From: Myxococcales bacterium
GTDB lineage: Bacteria > Myxococcota_A > Polyangia > GCA-2747355
Reading direction: 5' to 3'
Length of the DNA stretch: 53,774 bases
Assembly (NCBI GenBank): GCA_020431405.1
Contig: JAGQIK010000096.1
Span: 1-53,774, forward strand
Under the pieces are notes generated by a model. The model did not search any database, had not been told where the DNA came from, and saw only the letters and a program-made list of their open reading frames with translations. Positions 23,638 through 30,497 of the stretch are shown here, piece after piece. Both the position numbers and the translations under genes were made by a program. Positions within the stretch are counted from its first letter, which is position 1. Each line of letters starts with the position of its first letter.

Positions 23638-24465
23638 ATGCCACCCGTCACGCCACTTCACGACGCTCACGCGCACCTGACCCACCCGCGGCTGCGCGAC
23701 GATGTCGACGCCGTGCTCGACCGCGCCCGCGATGCCGGGGTCACGCGCGTGATCGCCAACGGGCTCAACTACTCCGACAACCTGGCGGTGCAGGCGCTGT
23801 CGCGGCGGCGCCCCGATATCGTGCGCCCCGCTTACGGGCTCTATCCAGTCGACGCCGTGCTCGAGGAGATGACCGCCGCCGGCGTTGACTACCCTCGCGA
23901 CCCCGGCGAGATCCGCGCCGAGGAGACCATCGCGTGGGTGCGCGAGCACGCCGGCGAGGCCATCGCCATTGGTGAGGTGGGGCTCGACGGCAAGTGGGTG
24001 CCGTCGGAGTTCTGGCCGCTGCAGGAGCAGCGTTTTTGCGCGATGGTCGAGCTGGCGTTGGCCGCGGACCGCCCGCTGATCATCCACAGCCGCAAGCGCG
24101 AGCTGCGCTGTTTCGAGCTGTGCCGAGAGCTGGGCGCCGAGCGGGTGCTCTTTCACGCCTACTCGAGCAAGCTCAAGCTCGCGCAGCGCATCGCCGAGGC
24201 TGGCTACTACCTCTCGGTGCCGAGCAACGCGCGGCGCGCCGACCAGTATGGCGCGTTGGTGCGCAAGATCCCTCGCGAGCGCTTGCTGCTCGAGACCGAC
24301 GCGCCCTATCTGAGCCCCGATCGCGAGCGCTGGCCGCGCAACGAGCCGGCGACGGTGGCAGAGACGGTGGCGTTCGCGGCGGAGGTCTGGAGCGAGCCGG
24401 CGCCCTCGGCCGCGCAGGTGTTCGCGGATAACTACGAGCGGCTGTTTCGCGAGCCGGCGAGCTAG
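23638..24465 (+). CDS. tatD: TatD-family metal-dependent hydrolase
   Basis: A 275-residue TIM-barrel hydrolase with all TatD metal-site motifs: DAHAHL, AIGEVGLDG (Glu), LIIHSRK, LFHAYS and LLETDAPYL (Asp). TatD proteins are Mg-dependent 3'-5' exonucleases acting on DNA and RNA, involved in repair of oxidative damage; some family members have other hydrolase activities. GGGAG 4 bases before ATG 23638 supports the start. It is convergent with the phosphate permease gene, their stops only 11 bases apart. TatD function is known for family members; here it is by similarity. Confidence 0.88.
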   Translation: MPPVTPLHDAHAHLTHPRLRDDVDAVLDRARDAGVTRVIANGLNYSDNLAVQALSRRRPDIVRPAYGLYPVDAVLEEMTAAGVDYPRDPGEIRAEETIAWVREHAGEAIAIGEVGLDGKWVPSEFWPLQEQRFCAMVELALAADRPLIIHSRKRELRCFELCRELGAERVLFHAYSSKLKLAQRIAEAGYYLSVPSNARRADQYGALVRKIPRERLLLETDAPYLSPDRERWPRNEPATVAETVAFAAEVWSEPAPSAAQVFADNYERLFREPAS

Positions 24466-24476
24466 GCGGCGAGCGT

Positions 24477-25619
24477 CTAGCTTCCGAAGAGGGCGGTGCG
24501 CACGACCGGGTTGATCACCACGGCCAGCGCGAGCGAGACCAACAGGCCGATGCCCGCGAGGATCACGTCCTTGGTGATGATCCAGAGAAGCTCGCCGCGC
24601 GAGCGCCGCTGGTGCGCGGGCAGCGCGGCGTTGATGACGATCTCGCGGCCGCCGAGCAGTCCGATGAAGACCCATGTCGTGCTCATCGGCATTCGGCTCA
24701 CGACTTTGAAGACGTAGAGGATGGCCGCGTAGACGAGGTTGACGAAGGTCGCCGGGCGCGTGTCGAGCACGTCGCTCTTTTCGGTGATGACGCCTTGGAT
24801 GCGACCGCCGCGACGCTTGATGAGCAGCACCAGGCCAGCGGAGAGCAGCGAGCCGTAGAGCACGAGCTCCCAGATCGACAGCGAGCGCGGCAGGAAGACG
24901 GCGACGTTAGCTGCGTCTTGCATCAACCAGACGGCCCACAGAATGCCCGACGTGGCCCATTGGCCGACGCGCCAAGCAGGGTGCGCCTCGCCGCGCGCCA
25001 TCAGGCGGCGCGTCAGCGGCGCGAGCGCGAGCCACATCACGATCGCCACGGCGAACGCGACGCCGTAGCCGCTGACGCTCTTGATCAGCACGCCCCACAC
25101 GCTGCCGCTGGTGCTGGCAAAGCAGGACAGGATCAGGAAGGTGGTCGAGACGGGCATGCGCAGCCGCGTCAGCACGAGCAGAAACAGCGGCGCCGTGATC
25201 TGCAGGTAGCTGAACGAGGTGGGTGCCGTGGCGAACCCCTTGGCCATCAGTCGCCCGTAGGAGACGTCACCGCCGTAGGTGAGCCAGCCGTAGAGGGTGG
25301 TGACGAGGAAGATGCCGGCCACGAAAAGCCACAGCGCCCACCAGGGCATGCGCATGTTGGCGCTGAGAAACGTGCCGATGGTCTGGATGCTGTCGTTGGC
25401 CACCACCGAGTAGCCCGCGAAGGCGAAGCCGAGCCACGCGGCGATGGTGGGCGTGCCGTAGCCGAGCGCGGCGACGAGAAAGGCCGCGCCCAGCACCAGC
25501 GCGAAGCCGAGCTCGCCGCGAATGACCTCGAGCCAGCCGCTGGGTTTGCGCTGCGCGGCGGCGGCGGGCGCTGCCTGGGGCCGGATGACGGAAATTGAAG
25601 GGATGGAGTGCTCGGTCAT
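24477..25619 (-). CDS. PiT-like inorganic phosphate permease
   Basis: A 380-residue integral membrane protein with about nine or ten hydrophobic segments. The N-terminal half has VVANDSIQTIGT, resembling the PiT signature GANDxxNxxGT, and the C-terminal half contains MQDAANVAVFL and RMPMSTTWVFIGLLGG, resembling the second repeat. These motifs suggest a sodium- or proton-coupled phosphate (or related anion) transporter of the PiT/SLC20 group, though the sequence is divergent. A near-consensus PHO box at 25748-25767 lies 129 bases upstream, strengthening the assignment: expression should rise under phosphate limitation. Confidence 0.75.
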   Translation of the reverse strand: MTEHSIPSISVIRPQAAPAAAAQRKPSGWLEVIRGELGFALVLGAAFLVAALGYGTPTIAAWLGFAFAGYSVVANDSIQTIGTFLSANMRMPWWALWLFVAGIFLVTTLYGWLTYGGDVSYGRLMAKGFATAPTSFSYLQITAPLFLLVLTRLRMPVSTTFLILSCFASTSGSVWGVLIKSVSGYGVAFAVAIVMWLALAPLTRRLMARGEAHPAWRVGQWATSGILWAVWLMQDAANVAVFLPRSLSIWELVLYGSLLSAGLVLLIKRRGGRIQGVITEKSDVLDTRPATFVNLVYAAILYVFKVVSRMPMSTTWVFIGLLGGREIVINAALPAHQRRSRGELLWIITKDVILAGIGLLVSLALAVVINPVVRTALFGS

Positions 25620-25767: not shown

Positions 25768-25839
25768 GAAAGGATCACGACGCGAGCGCGTGTTTCTACG
25801 CGCGTTGAGTTCGGCCGGTGGGCGTCGTATGAACGAGGC

Positions 25840-26640
25840 GTGGGCGAGGCAGTCTTTCTGATCGGCGCGGCGCTGGCGGCGGCTCTGCTGTGGCGCATGC
25901 GCCCGCGCCGCGGCGAAACAACGCTCGAGGTCGACGCTGACCTGCAGGTCGTGTTTCATCTCGCCGAGCACGAGGCGCGCGTGCGGCGCCACGCCCGCGT
26001 CGAGCCGTTGCACCTGATGCACGCGCTGCTGCAGAACGAGGAGATCTCGGCGGCGCTCGCACGCGAAGGCGTCGACATGGCGGCGGTGGACGCGCATTTT
26101 CAGCGCCGGCTCGAGGCGCTCGACGACAGCGCTACGGCCGACAGCGAGTCCAAGGGCGCTTGGTTGTGGTCGCCCGAGTCGCGGCAGGTTGTGCTCGAGG
26201 CGTTGGCCGAGGCGCGCGCGTCGCAGCGTGGGGAGGTGCGTCTCACGCAGCTGGCGAATCGGCTGTCGCGCATCTATCCCGAGTTCTTGTCGGAGGTGGA
26301 GGACGCGAGGCTTTCGCGGCCGGTGTTGCTCGCGGCGATCGCCCACGGCGCGGACGAGGACGAGGCGCCGCCGCTGATGCTAGAGGCCGGCGAGCGCGCC
26401 GAGGTGTTGCTGCACAACGATGACTTCACGCCGATGGAGCTGGTGGTCAACGTGCTCTGCGAGGTCTTCGGCTACGCGCAACAGGCGGCGATCGACAAGA
26501 TGATGGCGGTGCACAACGGCCCGCCGGCGGCCGTCGGCTGCTACGACGCCGAGGAGGCCGAGCGCAAGCTCGGGGAGGCCACCGACCGGGCGCGCGCCGC
26601 GGGCTTTCCGCTGCGCTTCTCTTTGCGGAGACCAGCGTGA
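25840..26640 (+). CDS. Membrane-anchored fusion of ClpA-type N-domain and ClpS adaptor
   Basis: A 266-residue protein. Residues 3-20 form a hydrophobic anchor (GEAVFLIGAALAAALLW), residues about 30-160 resemble the paired helical repeats of the ClpA/ClpC N-domain (LQVVFHLAEHEARVRRHARV; EPLHLMHALLQNEEISAAL; VVLEALAEARASQRGEVRL), and residues about 185-266 are ClpS: LLHNDDFTPMELVVNVLCEV, then KMMAVHNGPPAAVGCY. The ClpS N-degron pocket residues (NDD, M, VH) are kept. In E. coli ClpS docks on the ClpA N-domain to deliver N-end-rule substrates; here both are in one chain at the membrane, with no AAA+ domain. GTG 25840 is the start, without a strong ribosome binding site. The next gene overlaps its stop (GTGA). 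Confidence 0.85.
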   Translation: MGEAVFLIGAALAAALLWRMRPRRGETTLEVDADLQVVFHLAEHEARVRRHARVEPLHLMHALLQNEEISAALAREGVDMAAVDAHFQRRLEALDDSATADSESKGAWLWSPESRQVVLEALAEARASQRGEVRLTQLANRLSRIYPEFLSEVEDARLSRPVLLAAIAHGADEDEAPPLMLEAGERAEVLLHNDDFTPMELVVNVLCEVFGYAQQAAIDKMMAVHNGPPAAVGCYDAEEAERKLGEATDRARAAGFPLRFSLRRPA

Positions 26641-28184
26641 CACGACTTCAGCGCCTCGGACGCGTGAGCAACGCCTACAGCAACTTCCTCGAGGTCGTCG
26701 CGCTCGACGCGCTCGATTGCGCCAAGCCGGCAGGTGACGTGTCGATCGAGGTCGGCGGGTGCGGCACGTCCGATGTGTTTCGCGCGGGCGACGTGCTCGT
26801 GATGGTCGAGCACTACAGTGACGATTGGGATGACGACATCGAGCGCGACTTCCTGCGCACGGTCGTCGAGCACCCGACGTCGAGCGCGATCCAGCGGCTT
26901 GGCTGCGTGCAGCTGCGCAGCGGCGTGTTGGCGCTGGTGCCGACGCTCGAGCGCGAGGACGTTAGCTTCTCGTCGGGCGAGGTCGCCGCGGTCTCGGCTG
27001 CCGGCGGCGCCAAGCAGCACGGCGCTGGCCTGCTGGTCGCGCTACATCCGGGGCGCTATGACGTGTGGGCCGAGGCGTTCGAGATCAAGGGCGAGTGGGG
27101 CGCGATCGCTGGCCGCTTTCGCGTGGTGCCCGCGGGGCGCGCCGTGCGCGCGGGCGAGCCGCTGGCGAAGGCTGATGATGCGCCACCGGCTCGCGCTGGC
27201 GCCCAGGCTGCCGCGCTGCCCGCGGGCGAGCGTCGCGCGCTCGAGATCGCGAGCTGGGATGCGATCCAACACGTGGACGTGAGCCGCGACGGCGCCTTCG
27301 TCGTCGCTGGCGAGCACGGAGGCTCGCGCATCTGTTGCTGGCATGCCGACGGAACGCTGATGTGGCAGCACGCGCTGCGCCCGACGCCTGACCGCTCGCG
27401 CTATGCGCGCCACGTGCAGGTGCGTTTCGATCCGGATGGCGAGCACGTGATGGCCGTCGACTACAACGACGCGCTCGCACGCATCGCGGTTCGCAGCGGC
27501 GCGCTGACGCGTATGGCTTCGCCCAAGCCCGGTGCTCGCGCCCTGCGCGTCGCACCCGGCGGCGAGCGCGCCGTGCTGCGCGCTGGCACCGACACGTGGC
27601 TGCTTTCGTATCCGCAGCTCGAGGTCATCGGCCAGCTCGATGGCTATGCCAATCGAAACGACATCGCCTTCACGCCTGACGGCACCCTCGTCGCCGTTAA
27701 CGGCATCGAGGTGCACGTCTATCGCGTCGACGGAGGCGAGCACGTGGCGAGCGTCAAGGGTCCGCAGGATCCGAAGGCGGTCGCCTTCAGCGCCGATGGG
27801 CAGCGGCTCGCGGTGGCGCACGGTGACGGCGCGCTGCGCTTCTACGACGCGAAGAAGCTCGAGCAGCACGCGCCGCTCGACGCGCTCGATGTGCTCGATG
27901 TGGCGCCAGAGCGCACGCGCAAGCCGGAGATTACCTGCGTGGCGTTCTCTGCCGATGCACGGCACCTCGCCGTGGCAGGAGATGACGGCGCCGTGCGGCT
28001 GTTCGACGCTGCGACCCTCGAGCCGCGAGCGACGTTCGCCAAGCACAACACCGCCATCCCCGACACGGGCGCGCGACGGCTGAGCGAGATCGTTTTCGCG
28101 CAGTCGTCGCGCTGGCTGCTCGTTTCGGCGTCGCTGAAGAAACAGCCCACAGCCGTCAGCGCCTACGCGCTGTCATCGCGCTAG
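26637..28184 (+). CDS. WD40-like beta-propeller protein coupled to the ClpS fusion
   Basis: A 515-residue cytoplasmic protein. Residues 1-165 are an unrecognised beta-rich domain (LRRVSNAYSN-like start; FRAGDVLVMVEHYSDDWDDD), and residues about 205-515 form a WD40/YVTN-like propeller with repeats such as FDPDGEHVMAVDY, FTPDGTLVAVNGIEVHVY, FSADGQRLAVAHGDGALRFY and FSADARHLAVAGDDGAVRLF. The GTG start overlaps the ClpS-fusion stop by four bases (GTGA), so translation is coupled. A propeller is a typical protein-binding scaffold; a substrate-receptor role with the ClpS fusion is my inference. Its TAG stop shares a CTAG tetranucleotide with the convergent lipoprotein gene. Confidence 0.85.
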   Translation: MTRLQRLGRVSNAYSNFLEVVALDALDCAKPAGDVSIEVGGCGTSDVFRAGDVLVMVEHYSDDWDDDIERDFLRTVVEHPTSSAIQRLGCVQLRSGVLALVPTLEREDVSFSSGEVAAVSAAGGAKQHGAGLLVALHPGRYDVWAEAFEIKGEWGAIAGRFRVVPAGRAVRAGEPLAKADDAPPARAGAQAAALPAGERRALEIASWDAIQHVDVSRDGAFVVAGEHGGSRICCWHADGTLMWQHALRPTPDRSRYARHVQVRFDPDGEHVMAVDYNDALARIAVRSGALTRMASPKPGARALRVAPGGERAVLRAGTDTWLLSYPQLEVIGQLDGYANRNDIAFTPDGTLVAVNGIEVHVYRVDGGEHVASVKGPQDPKAVAFSADGQRLAVAHGDGALRFYDAKKLEQHAPLDALDVLDVAPERTRKPEITCVAFSADARHLAVAGDDGAVRLFDAATLEPRATFAKHNTAIPDTGARRLSEIVFAQSSRWLLVSASLKKQPTAVSAYALSSR

Positions 28185-29398
28185 GGTTTGCTGGAACAGC
28201 CGGCGTAGCGCACGCAGGTGCGCCATCCGTCGGTGCCGCTGCCGTGCTTGCTGATGCAGCAGGCCGTACACTCGGCGTTGGTTGCCTTGGCCTTGCACTC
28301 GTTGTCGGGGTTTTCGGCCTGACAGGCCTTGCAGCCGTCGAGCTTCTTCCACTCGTAACCACACTTGCCGAGCGCGCGGCATACCGCCTCGTGCACGTAG
28401 AACGGCTTCTCGCCGGCGCCGGGCGAGTGCGTCGCCGTGCACCAGAGCTTGGTCTTCTTACAGTCCTTGCTCTTCCATGCGGTGCATAGCTTGTCCCAGC
28501 AAGCCTGCGGCGGGTTGTCGGTGATGCTGCCCGTGTTGGGCCAGCAGCACTTTTGGCTGTTGCTCTGCGGTTCGACCATGCAGAAGCAACCGTTGCTGAC
28601 GTCGCCTTCGGCGTTGGCGCAGTTGCCCGCGGTGAACTCGGCGATGTTGATCACGTGCCCCCAGGTGGCGCCGCCGCCGTACTTCTTCTTGCACTTCTCG
28701 CAGGTCTTTTGTTTGGGGTCGAGATCGGTGCCCTGGAAGCTGAGCTGACAGACGTTGTAGCCGTTGGCGAGACCCCAGTGCTGGCAGACGAGCGCGAAGT
28801 CGTCGCAGTCGAAGTGGTCGGGGTTTTCGCTCTGGTCGCCGCGGCACTTGGTGCAGCAGCCTTTGGGCCCGCAGTTGTAGACCATCTTGTCAGCGGGACA
28901 GTTGAATGGCCCGTCGATGGGTTTCTTCTGGCAGGTGTGGCCGCCGCTATCATCGACGCCACCATCGCTGCCTCCCGTGCCCGTGCCCGTGCCGGTGCCC
29001 GTGCCCGCCGCCGCCGCAGCGCACGCGCACTGCGAAACGGTGCACTCGCCCAGCGCCACCTGGTTGTCCTCGGTGCACACGCCGCCGAGGCTCGGCTCGA
29101 TGCAGACCTCGCCGAGGTCGCCGAAGCCAAAGTCGAGCGCGCCGAAGACGTCGGACGTGGCGTCGGAGCATCGAGCGGCGTCGCCGTCATCGCCGGCGTC
29201 GGCGCTCGTTCCGCTGCCGCTGCCGTCATCGCCACCGGCGTCCATCGATACGGTGCCTGGTGCGACGGCGGTGGTCGTGCGATCATGGCCGCCGCCCCCG
29301 CCGATCAAGCCGTTGCAAGACATGACGATCATTGCGAAGGCGGCGCAGGCGAGGCAGACGACGACCGCCAGCGCCCGCCGTCGAAGGCGTGTGCTCAT
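28181..29398 (-). CDS. Large Cys-rich lipoprotein
   Basis: A 405-residue protein. The signal peptide MSTRLRRRALAVVVCLACAA ends in lipobox VMSC. A Gly/Asp/Ser-rich linker (residues about 35-80) and a Gly-Thr repeat linker near 130-142 separate short Cys modules, and the last 260 residues hold about 40 cysteines in patterns such as CCTKCRGD, CEKCKKKYGG and CTACCISKHG, implying many disulfides or metal sites. AGGAGGAG before ATG 29398 fixes the start. The product should sit on the cell surface or outer membrane. I do not recognise the family; several local modules look duplicated. Confidence 0.8.
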   Translation of the reverse strand: MSTRLRRRALAVVVCLACAAFAMIVMSCNGLIGGGGGHDRTTTAVAPGTVSMDAGGDDGSGSGTSADAGDDGDAARCSDATSDVFGALDFGFGDLGEVCIEPSLGGVCTEDNQVALGECTVSQCACAAAAAGTGTGTGTGTGGSDGGVDDSGGHTCQKKPIDGPFNCPADKMVYNCGPKGCCTKCRGDQSENPDHFDCDDFALVCQHWGLANGYNVCQLSFQGTDLDPKQKTCEKCKKKYGGGATWGHVINIAEFTAGNCANAEGDVSNGCFCMVEPQSNSQKCCWPNTGSITDNPPQACWDKLCTAWKSKDCKKTKLWCTATHSPGAGEKPFYVHEAVCRALGKCGYEWKKLDGCKACQAENPDNECKAKATNAECTACCISKHGSGTDGWRTCVRYAGCSSKP

Positions 29399-29459
29399 GT
29401 GGGGGCTCCTCCTGGGTGTATGTTCATGTACTACGTCGCGGACTGAGCGAACCTTGACC

Positions 29460-30497
29460 TTGGCGATCAAGACCGTGTTGTTTGGCAACCCGACGGCGCA
29501 GTCAGGTCGCGCCGCCGAGTTCATCGAGCGCGCGCGGGTCGAGCTCGACGAGGCGGGCATCGCGCACGACTTCGAGCCGACGCGCCCGCGCGGCGAGACG
29601 GTCGACTTCGTGCGCGCCGCCATCGACAGCGATCGCTACGCCGCGCGGCGCCTCATCGCGCTCGGCGGTGACGGCACGTTCTCCGAGGTCGCGCGCGGCA
29701 TCCTCGCCTCGCAGCACGCAGGCGAGGTGACGATGGGCATGCTGCCGCTCGGAACGGCCAACGACCAGGGACGCTCCTTCGGGCTGCAGGCCGGCGAGGA
29801 CGGCCTCGAGCGCAACGTGGCGGTCATCGCCGCGGGACACCTCGCGCTGCTCGACGCGGGCAAGCTGTCGCTGATCGATCGCGCCGGCAAGGTGCTGCTC
29901 GAGCGGCTGTTCTTCGACTCGGCGAGCGTCGGCTTCTCCGCGGCGATCCTGCGCACGCGCAATCGCGACGAGCGCAACGCCGCCGAGCTCGGGCCGCTGG
30001 GCAAGCTGTATCGCGGACACCTTGCCTACGTCGGCGCGGCGCTCGCCGAGCTCGCCAACACCTATGTCGATGACAGCGCCAAGCTCGACATCGAAGCCGA
30101 GCTCGACGGCAAACGCTATCGCTGGGATCGTCTGCTCGACGTGATCATCAAGAACACGCGCGTCTATGCCGGGCAGTGGGTGTTGGCTCCCGAGAGCCAA
30201 CCGGACGACGGCATGCTCGAGCTGGTGCCGATCACGTCGCGACGCGAGCTGACCTCGAAGCTGCTCTCCAATCTCGACGGCTCGCTGCTCGACGACGAGG
30301 CGCTGCGCGGCATCGGCGTCGATCACGAACGGCCGATCTCGTTTTCGCAGCTGTCGCTGCACGTCAGCAGCGGGAGCGAGCCCCCCGCGGTGCAGGCTGA
30401 CGGCGAGGAGCTCGGACGCGCGCGGCGCTTGCGCGTCGACGTGCTGGCGCGCGCGCTGCGCCTGATCGTGCCGCTGCGCTACGCGACAACCTCCTAG
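29460..30497 (+). CDS. Diacylglycerol kinase-like (LCB5/YegS-family) lipid kinase
   Basis: About 345 residues with the DAGK catalytic fold: KTVLFGNPTAQSGRAAEF, the nucleotide motif LIALGGDGTFSEVARGIL, and MLPLGTANDQGRSFGL, which matches the GTAND loop. The second, beta-rich domain follows (LVPITSRRELTSKLL; PPAVQADGEELG with the usual DGE/DGD motif). These enzymes phosphorylate diacylglycerol or related lipids with ATP. No ATG is well placed; TTG 29460 or TTG 29454 gives the right N-terminal strand, while ATG 29397 would overlap the divergent gene start and add a non-conserved leader. Confidence 0.85.
   Translation: MAIKTVLFGNPTAQSGRAAEFIERARVELDEAGIAHDFEPTRPRGETVDFVRAAIDSDRYAARRLIALGGDGTFSEVARGILASQHAGEVTMGMLPLGTANDQGRSFGLQAGEDGLERNVAVIAAGHLALLDAGKLSLIDRAGKVLLERLFFDSASVGFSAAILRTRNRDERNAAELGPLGKLYRGHLAYVGAALAELANTYVDDSAKLDIEAELDGKRYRWDRLLDVIIKNTRVYAGQWVLAPESQPDDGMLELVPITSRRELTSKLLSNLDGSLLDDEALRGIGVDHERPISFSQLSLHVSSGSEPPAVQADGEELGRARRLRVDVLARALRLIVPLRYATTS

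Follow-up and report, generated by a model that had tools for sequence, protein, structure and literature searches.

A ClpA-type N-domain fused to ClpS behind a predicted membrane helix: a paralogue family with a possible role in membrane-held N-degron recognition

In a single chain of 266 amino acids, a gene of the window (the whole 53,774-nucleotide stretch of DNA analysed here) encodes a predicted membrane anchor, a ClpA-type N-domain and a ClpS domain (25840..26640, plus strand, GTG start), and this fusion belongs to a paralogue family scattered over the bacterial class from which the window comes. The most likely function of the window protein, with a probability that we put at roughly 0.45, is that of a membrane-held N-degron receptor that captures its substrates rather than delivers them. 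Tethered delivery to ClpAP, a decoy function and self-occlusion all appear less likely than such capture.

The original prediction, made from the letters of the DNA, placed ClpS, a ClpA-type N-domain and a hydrophobic N-terminus in one chain devoid of an AAA+ module, and this architecture was borne out by Pfam, by a profile search of PDB sequences and by AlphaFold2. Pfam detects ClpS (PF02617) at residues 186-260 with 76.7 bits (cut-off 23) and Clp_N (PF02861) at residues 42-83 with 25.2 bits (cut-off 20.7), the latter match covering the first repeat only; no other domain, and specifically no AAA+ module, is matched in the 266 residues at E-values up to 1. The NCBIfam ClpS models yield 54 bits, far under the equivalog cut-off of 143, and the NCBIfam ClpA model matches residues 33-170 weakly. 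When the whole protein is searched as a single sequence against PDB sequences, ClpS is recovered at 4.3e-10 and the ClpA N-domain weakly, at 0.052; the N-domain stretch alone reaches the ClpA N-domain at E = 0.024, but a spurious galectin scores better (0.0043), so that one sequence is insufficient for calling Clp_N. With a profile of 16 family members, the ClpA N-domain is recovered at 2.1e-13 over ClpA residues 2-143, and ClpS at 4e-27.

As the original prediction anticipated, both domains appear in the AlphaFold2 models, which were built with alignments of 16 members (mean pLDDT 85.6, pTM 0.73) and 34 members (mean pLDDT 88.6, pTM 0.78). Both models predict a helix at residues 2-19/20, eight Clp_N helices within residues 33-169 and the ClpS fold from residue 186; in the 34-member model, the pLDDT of the ClpS block is at least 92 from residue 191 on. 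Taken together with Pfam, the PDB sequences and the fold comparison, the models delimit a Clp_N domain with both helical repeats (residues 28-174; 25921..26361, plus strand) and a ClpS domain (residues 183-265; 26386..26634, plus strand), and these limits leave between them a short linker (residues 175-182; 26362..26385, plus strand) in the position that the free N-terminal extension takes up in ordinary ClpS. In Foldseek/VIA-align comparisons of the first model, residues 183-265 match E. coli ClpS (3o2b_C) with Z 16.5 and rmsd 0.8 over 82 residues. Residues 28-174, which span the segment 30-160 originally proposed to be Clp_N, do match Clp_N structurally, with Z 17.3 for the Hsp100 N-domain of Hsp104, 15.5 for that of ClpB and 14.4, over 137 residues, for the ClpA N-domain (1k6k). 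The fold ranking by itself does not single out ClpA, the best Clp_N-type matches among the PDB folds listed being Hsp104 N-domains; it is by sequence, rather than by fold ranking, that the N-domain is assigned to the ClpA type, and among the Hsp100 genes in the genome of the window the family profile scores best with the N-domain of the clpS-adjacent gene (4.7e-18), the runner-up standing at 1.9e-8.

The GC content of the reading frame by codon position (0.76/0.45/0.90) is coding-like. The open reading frames listed include no alternative start codon in frame 5' of the GTG, and an ATG at 25829, read by eye, is out of frame; a promoter and terminator scan around the gene gave nothing useful. 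A chance join or a frame artefact can be dismissed, given the codon-position GC and the recurrence of the architecture, which is kept in at least 30 genomes. An in-frame joining of the clpS-clpA operon was likewise rejected, since the order in the operon is ClpS-ClpA and that in the fusion is Clp_N-ClpS, and since the ordinary pair is present elsewhere in the genome.

The N-terminus of the window protein is short and acidic or neutral; it is followed by a hydrophobic run, itself short at about 15-18 residues, and then by the Arg-rich motif RMRPRR. The run, the charge pattern and both AlphaFold2 models mark residues 2-19 (25843..25896, plus strand), just ahead of this motif, as a predicted membrane helix. 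The charges are distributed as in a reverse signal anchor and not as in a Sec signal peptide, which argues against a cleaved signal peptide and, by the positive-inside rule, for an anchor oriented N-out, C-in that leaves Clp_N and ClpS in the cytoplasm. Hence the membrane anchor of the original prediction stands as a prediction from the hydrophobic run and the charges around it: most likely, the N-terminal helix sits in the inner membrane and both domains are cytoplasmic.

The anchor is a frequent, albeit not a universal, feature of the family. A strict test, which calls for 15 or more consecutive residues free of R, K, D, E, H, N and Q and for a 15-residue stretch with a mean hydropathy of 1.4 or higher, is passed by 21 of the 34 members, a count affected by the choice of the members' start codons, which were picked by eye. 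Of these 21, 20 carry a net positive charge behind the run, higher than the charge ahead of it, the exception being the G241 protein; two more proteins (L130 and L142) narrowly miss the test and have the same charge pattern. The remaining 11 of the 34 have no N-terminal run that passes the test or is visible by eye, and several of these carry two Clp_N domains. None of 105 ClpA N-domains and none of 105 ClpS sequences pass, a weak control because these are domain segments rather than full N-termini. Two fusions without a passing anchor (L200 and L189) have, by eye, four helical repeats, that is, two Clp_N domains, before ClpS.

The search for the same architecture across genomes turned up, within the class, at least 34 genes, that of the window among them, in at least 30 genomes; the bearers are bacteria with large genomes. 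Across the class, 317 genomes were scanned, mostly coarsely, with the best 8 candidates per genome scored; for the class and phylum scans together, 7-8 candidates per genome were scored, and for the scan of the large third family of genomes, the best 24, so that all counts of fusions are lower bounds. Fusions were detected in 1 of 4 genomes of the window's own order, in 11 of 30, 3 of 29 and 13 of 108 genomes of the first, second and third families, respectively (the last figure after inspection of reading frames), and as single finds of the class and phylum scans in G125 and G313. Pfam recognizes ClpS in all 34 members and Clp_N in 26 of the 34 at E-values up to 0.1. Three genomes (G207, G255 and G288) contain two fusion copies each, on different contigs, and in one further locus (L124:4896-6417) two fusion genes lie side by side in one genome. 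Left out of the count were a partial gene in G055 and a copy in G050 with two internal stops; this latter copy (L199; G050:C97:21806-22555), broken by the two stop codons, is apparently decaying.

Outside the class, we detected nothing comparable. Among 50 genomes from several phyla reached from named records (50 of 80 loci, chosen to span record types), all 50 gave a match to the family profile and none gave a full-length uninterrupted match; in the phylum sample outside the class, no open frame spanned both domains among the matches listed. None of 32 plasmid records with a match has a place covering 80% of the query. Three apparent fusions in named records (L013, L014 and L050) proved to be ordinary operon genes: clpS copies in tandem, or a clpS with clpA behind it. 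In two of them (L013 and L014), from Acidobacteria and Blastocatellia records, two ordinary clpS genes stand in a row before clpA.

The fusion is an addition to the ordinary N-degron machinery rather than a replacement for it. The genome of the window encodes an ordinary ClpS directly before ClpA on another contig (C450), away from the fusion locus, as well as the enzyme Aat, which attaches Leu or Phe to N-termini, and so the fusion appears as an extra paralogue. In the first family of genomes, an ordinary ClpS is listed for 10 of the 11 fusion-bearing genomes, and the eleventh (G042) is 73% complete. Two ClpS trees, both built on 88 columns with long branches and including 21 of the 34 fused members, bear on the origin of this paralogue. 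In the tree of 75 rows, 54 ordinary ClpS from several phyla form one well-supported group together with a single fused sequence (L134), and the other 20 fused sequences fall outside, so that the fused label needs 2 changes; in the tree of 48 rows, all 21 fused sequences lie on one side of a branch with support 95/93. Neighbours labelled Myxococcota in the tree of 75 rows suggest that phylum for the window. A single origin of the fused ClpS is likely, and only likely, because the columns are few and the branches long; several origins, or convergence of fast-evolving copies, are possible.

The gene that follows the fusion (26637..28184, plus strand) encodes a WD40 protein of 515 amino acids and, as originally noted, overlaps the stop of the fusion gene by 4 bp (GTGA). 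The further suggestion, that the two proteins make up a two-part receptor, found no support: when 16 loci were compared with the window, no related neighbour was present at the other fusion loci, and relatives of the N-terminal region of the WD40 protein occur away from fusions, so that we rejected this gene as a conserved partner. The first 200 residues of the WD40 protein form a separate region with relatives in 4 other genomes out of 306, none of them recorded beside a fusion; in one of these (G051), the relative and a fusion are on separate contigs. Across the same 16 loci and the window, a shared neighbour is confined to a pair of genomes from a single genus; one further ORF match, common to three loci, runs antisense to the fusion gene, and two isolated ORF matches, each linking two loci, are taken as antisense or chance. 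Operon-like neighbours were seen for 10 members (10 of 62 candidate ORFs); their matches include ERG4/ERG24, PDZ, PEGA, PAS, IgGFc-binding and PPPase, 4 of the 10 have no match, and there is no common theme. Neither these 10 genes nor the compared loci include a neighbour that points to a membrane role.

Other genes of the window near the fusion can be described briefly. On the minus strand upstream (24477-25619) lies a gene for a polytopic membrane protein of 380 amino acids with no credible Pfam and no NCBIfam match, whose NDS and STTW motifs, by eye, recall phosphate permeases. The minus-strand gene at 28181-29623 encodes a Cys-rich protein of 480 amino acids, without a Pfam match, in which a DCDD...GHV pattern, again by eye, resembles that of transglutaminase-type cysteine enzymes. 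At 23638-24465, on the plus strand, is a TatD-type nuclease (193 bits), for which QatD of the Qat defence system is a further match, under the cut-off of that model.

The pocket of the ClpS half argues that the window protein might still recognize N-degrons. ClpS residues are numbered here from what we take to be the full N-terminus of the E. coli protein. This numbering agrees with Pro24-Pro25 in the available text of PMC9663308. With the pocket residues as given in the accessible part of PMC12493166, the motif NDD (26416..26424, plus strand) aligns with N34-D35-D36 of E. coli ClpS, and T197, M199, M221, V224, H225 and L258 complete the tested set, so that the intact NDD/VH pocket claimed originally is upheld at all nine positions (N34, D35, D36, T38, M40, M62, V65, H66 and L99). 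The family as a whole is far less conservative. All nine residues are kept in 3 of the 34 members, the gatekeeper M40 in 14, and N34, D35, D36 and H66 together in 15 of 34 compared with 102 of 105 ordinary ClpS, and N-degron binding is, therefore, probably not family-wide.

We propose, then, that the N-terminal helix would anchor the fusion in the inner membrane with Clp_N and ClpS facing the cytoplasm, that the ClpS half would bind proteins whose exposed first residue is destabilising (Leu, Phe, Tyr or Trp), keeping them at the membrane, and that the Clp_N half might serve as a second docking or unfolded-peptide-binding surface. The original prediction had raised the tethering of N-degron substrates at the membrane, and this we regard as a reasonable inference from the sequence. 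What the fusion by itself would probably do poorly is hand substrates to ClpAP. In E. coli, according to PMC9663308, ClpA pulls the flexible N-terminal extension of ClpS into its channel in the course of delivery, and blocking this entry inhibits degradation. In the window protein, the ClpS core is preceded by a linker of approximately 8 residues, the folded Clp_N domain and the hydrophobic helix, and a free flexible extension is absent; with a folded domain and an anchor in its place, poor delivery is to be expected. If hand-over is indeed poor, the protein would act as a receptor that captures, concentrates or competes, alongside the soluble ClpS of the ordinary kind. All of these steps, namely, membrane insertion, N-degron binding, weak delivery and the role of Clp_N, are put forward as probable rather than established.

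The absence of this extension is also a difficulty for the alternative in which the protein is a delivery adaptor after all, its ClpS half binding the N-domain of a true ClpA in trans and recruiting ClpAP to the membrane, where N-degron proteins nearby would be degraded. The genome does encode a true ClpA with its N-domain, and the window protein keeps all three of E79, E82 and K84, through which, in the available text of PMC12493166, E. coli ClpS contacts ClpA: salt bridges run from Glu82 and Lys84 to Arg86 and Glu23 of ClpA, and Glu79 bonds with Glu28 and Thr81. It could, accordingly, dock on the true ClpA via its ClpS half, by the evidence of these residues. However, the acid-acid-base pattern at 79, 82 and 84 is confined to the window protein, 1 of the 34 members, and because it alone keeps the pattern, the family as a whole appears to be independent of ClpA docking through these positions. 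We consider tethered delivery to be rather doubtful.

Somewhat less probable still is that the fusion is a decoy or anti-adaptor which soaks up N-degron substrates, ligands of the ClpA N-domain or toxic peptides and so shields the cell from ClpAP, much as mycobacterial ClpC2 does with cyclomarin. There is precedent, in that ClpC2, a Clp_N protein without AAA+, sequesters cyclomarin away from ClpC1 (PMC10030653, in the text available), and Myxococcus xanthus lacking clpA or clpS is resistant to the transferred toxin SitA6 according to the accessible part of PMC8546572, from which it follows that Clp activity can be a liability. The patchy presence and divergent surfaces of the family would fit such a role. 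Yet, the fusion has nothing that corresponds to the regulatory or DNA-binding portion of ClpC2, and the full N-degron pocket of the window protein would be superfluous in a pure Clp_N decoy.

Self-occlusion, another idea of the original prediction, would have the ClpS half docked on the Clp_N half of its own chain until freed by a signal. ClpS and the ClpA N-domain are, after all, known partners, and their E. coli heterodimers have been solved (1mbu, 1r6o). In its classical form, this idea is not supported by comparison with the contacts reported in PMC12493166, because the chief ClpS-pairing residues are gone from the Clp_N half. Glu23, Glu28, Thr81 and Arg86 of E. coli ClpA are replaced by Ala, Leu, Ser and Gln, respectively, in the window protein (Ser at position 81 is also found in 43 of 105 ordinary ClpA), and in the family Glu23, Glu28 and Arg86 are kept in 5, 9 and 7 of 34 members compared with 30, 36 and 36 of 36 aligned ClpA from the same phylum and near loci, all of these being alignment-based readings of divergent sequences. 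The partner residues on the ClpS side drift in the family, too. The two halves are, judging from these substitutions, unlikely to dock on each other classically, and a non-classical interface between them is possible; overall, a self-occluded adaptor seems improbable. A structural or signalling role, in which Clp and N-degron functions were lost and the two folds act as generic peptide-binding modules, is an equally slim prospect: pocket residues are decayed in over half of the family, and Clp_N and L12/ClpS-type domains have been shuffled into conflict systems (PMC7159879, in the part available), but D35 and V43 of ClpS are invariant in all 34 members, and the pocket of the window protein is complete.

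Capture at the membrane thus remains our preferred reading for the window protein. Whether the fusions across the class are membrane-anchored N-recognins that sense N-degrons at the inner face of the membrane and hold them for, or withhold them from, ClpAP is a more tentative proposition, in which we have less confidence. Accounts of the bacterial N-degron pathway usually feature a single kind of receptor, the soluble ClpS acting on ClpA. If the proposal is correct, this pathway includes, in parallel with soluble ClpS, a spatial branch that is held at the membrane and has a receptor of its own, and the presence of ClpS and the ClpA N-domain in one, mostly anchored, chain would show that substrate choice is separable from delivery and can be placed at the membrane. 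Moreover, because the family has kept the folds and changed the contact surface, it represents a natural test of which surfaces of ClpS and of the ClpA N-domain are needed.

In the open-licence literature, to the extent of the text available from it and with subscription papers outside the scope, we encountered no description of a Clp_N-ClpS fusion or of a membrane-anchored ClpS, and the comparison with known systems is, accordingly, one of parts. With ClpS (PF02617; E. coli 1mbu, 3o2b), the window protein shares the fold, the pocket residues and E79/E82/K84; it differs from ordinary ClpS in being fused behind Clp_N and a membrane helix, in lacking the free N-terminal extension, and in being an extra copy that is not beside clpA, its gene being flanked by those for a membrane protein on the opposite strand and the WD40 protein rather than lying directly upstream of clpA, with the fused domains mostly forming a separate group in the ClpS tree. 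With the ClpA N-domain (1k6k; Clp_N, PF02861), it has both helical repeats in common; unlike ClpA, it has no AAA+ modules, and Glu23, Glu28 and Arg86 are mostly lost in the family. The plastid system offers another partial parallel, ClpT being a Clp_N-type accessory protein without AAA+, and the model of the window protein matches a chain in the Chlamydomonas Clp core (entry 7eko) with Z 13.8. There, however, ClpT, ClpF and ClpS1 are separate proteins; the ClpP ring is where ClpT is seated, and ClpF, which with ClpS1 has been proposed to form a two-part adaptor (PMC7966870, in its available text), carries uvrB/C and YccV domains and not Clp_N. Mycobacterial ClpC2 (8ad9; fold match Z 13.4) is also a Clp_N protein without AAA+, but according to the accessible text of PMC10030653, it uses an N-terminal domain of its own to dimerise and acts as a repressor of the gene that encodes it, and a ClpS domain and a membrane anchor, the features of the fusion, are not mentioned for it in that text. 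Finally, the proteins of conflict systems, in which the available part of PMC7159879 describes ClpN repeats on vWA proteins and L12/ClpS insertions, do not, as described there, combine Clp_N and ClpS in one chain as the fusion does, but share with it the shuffling of Clp_N and ClpS-like domains into new proteins.
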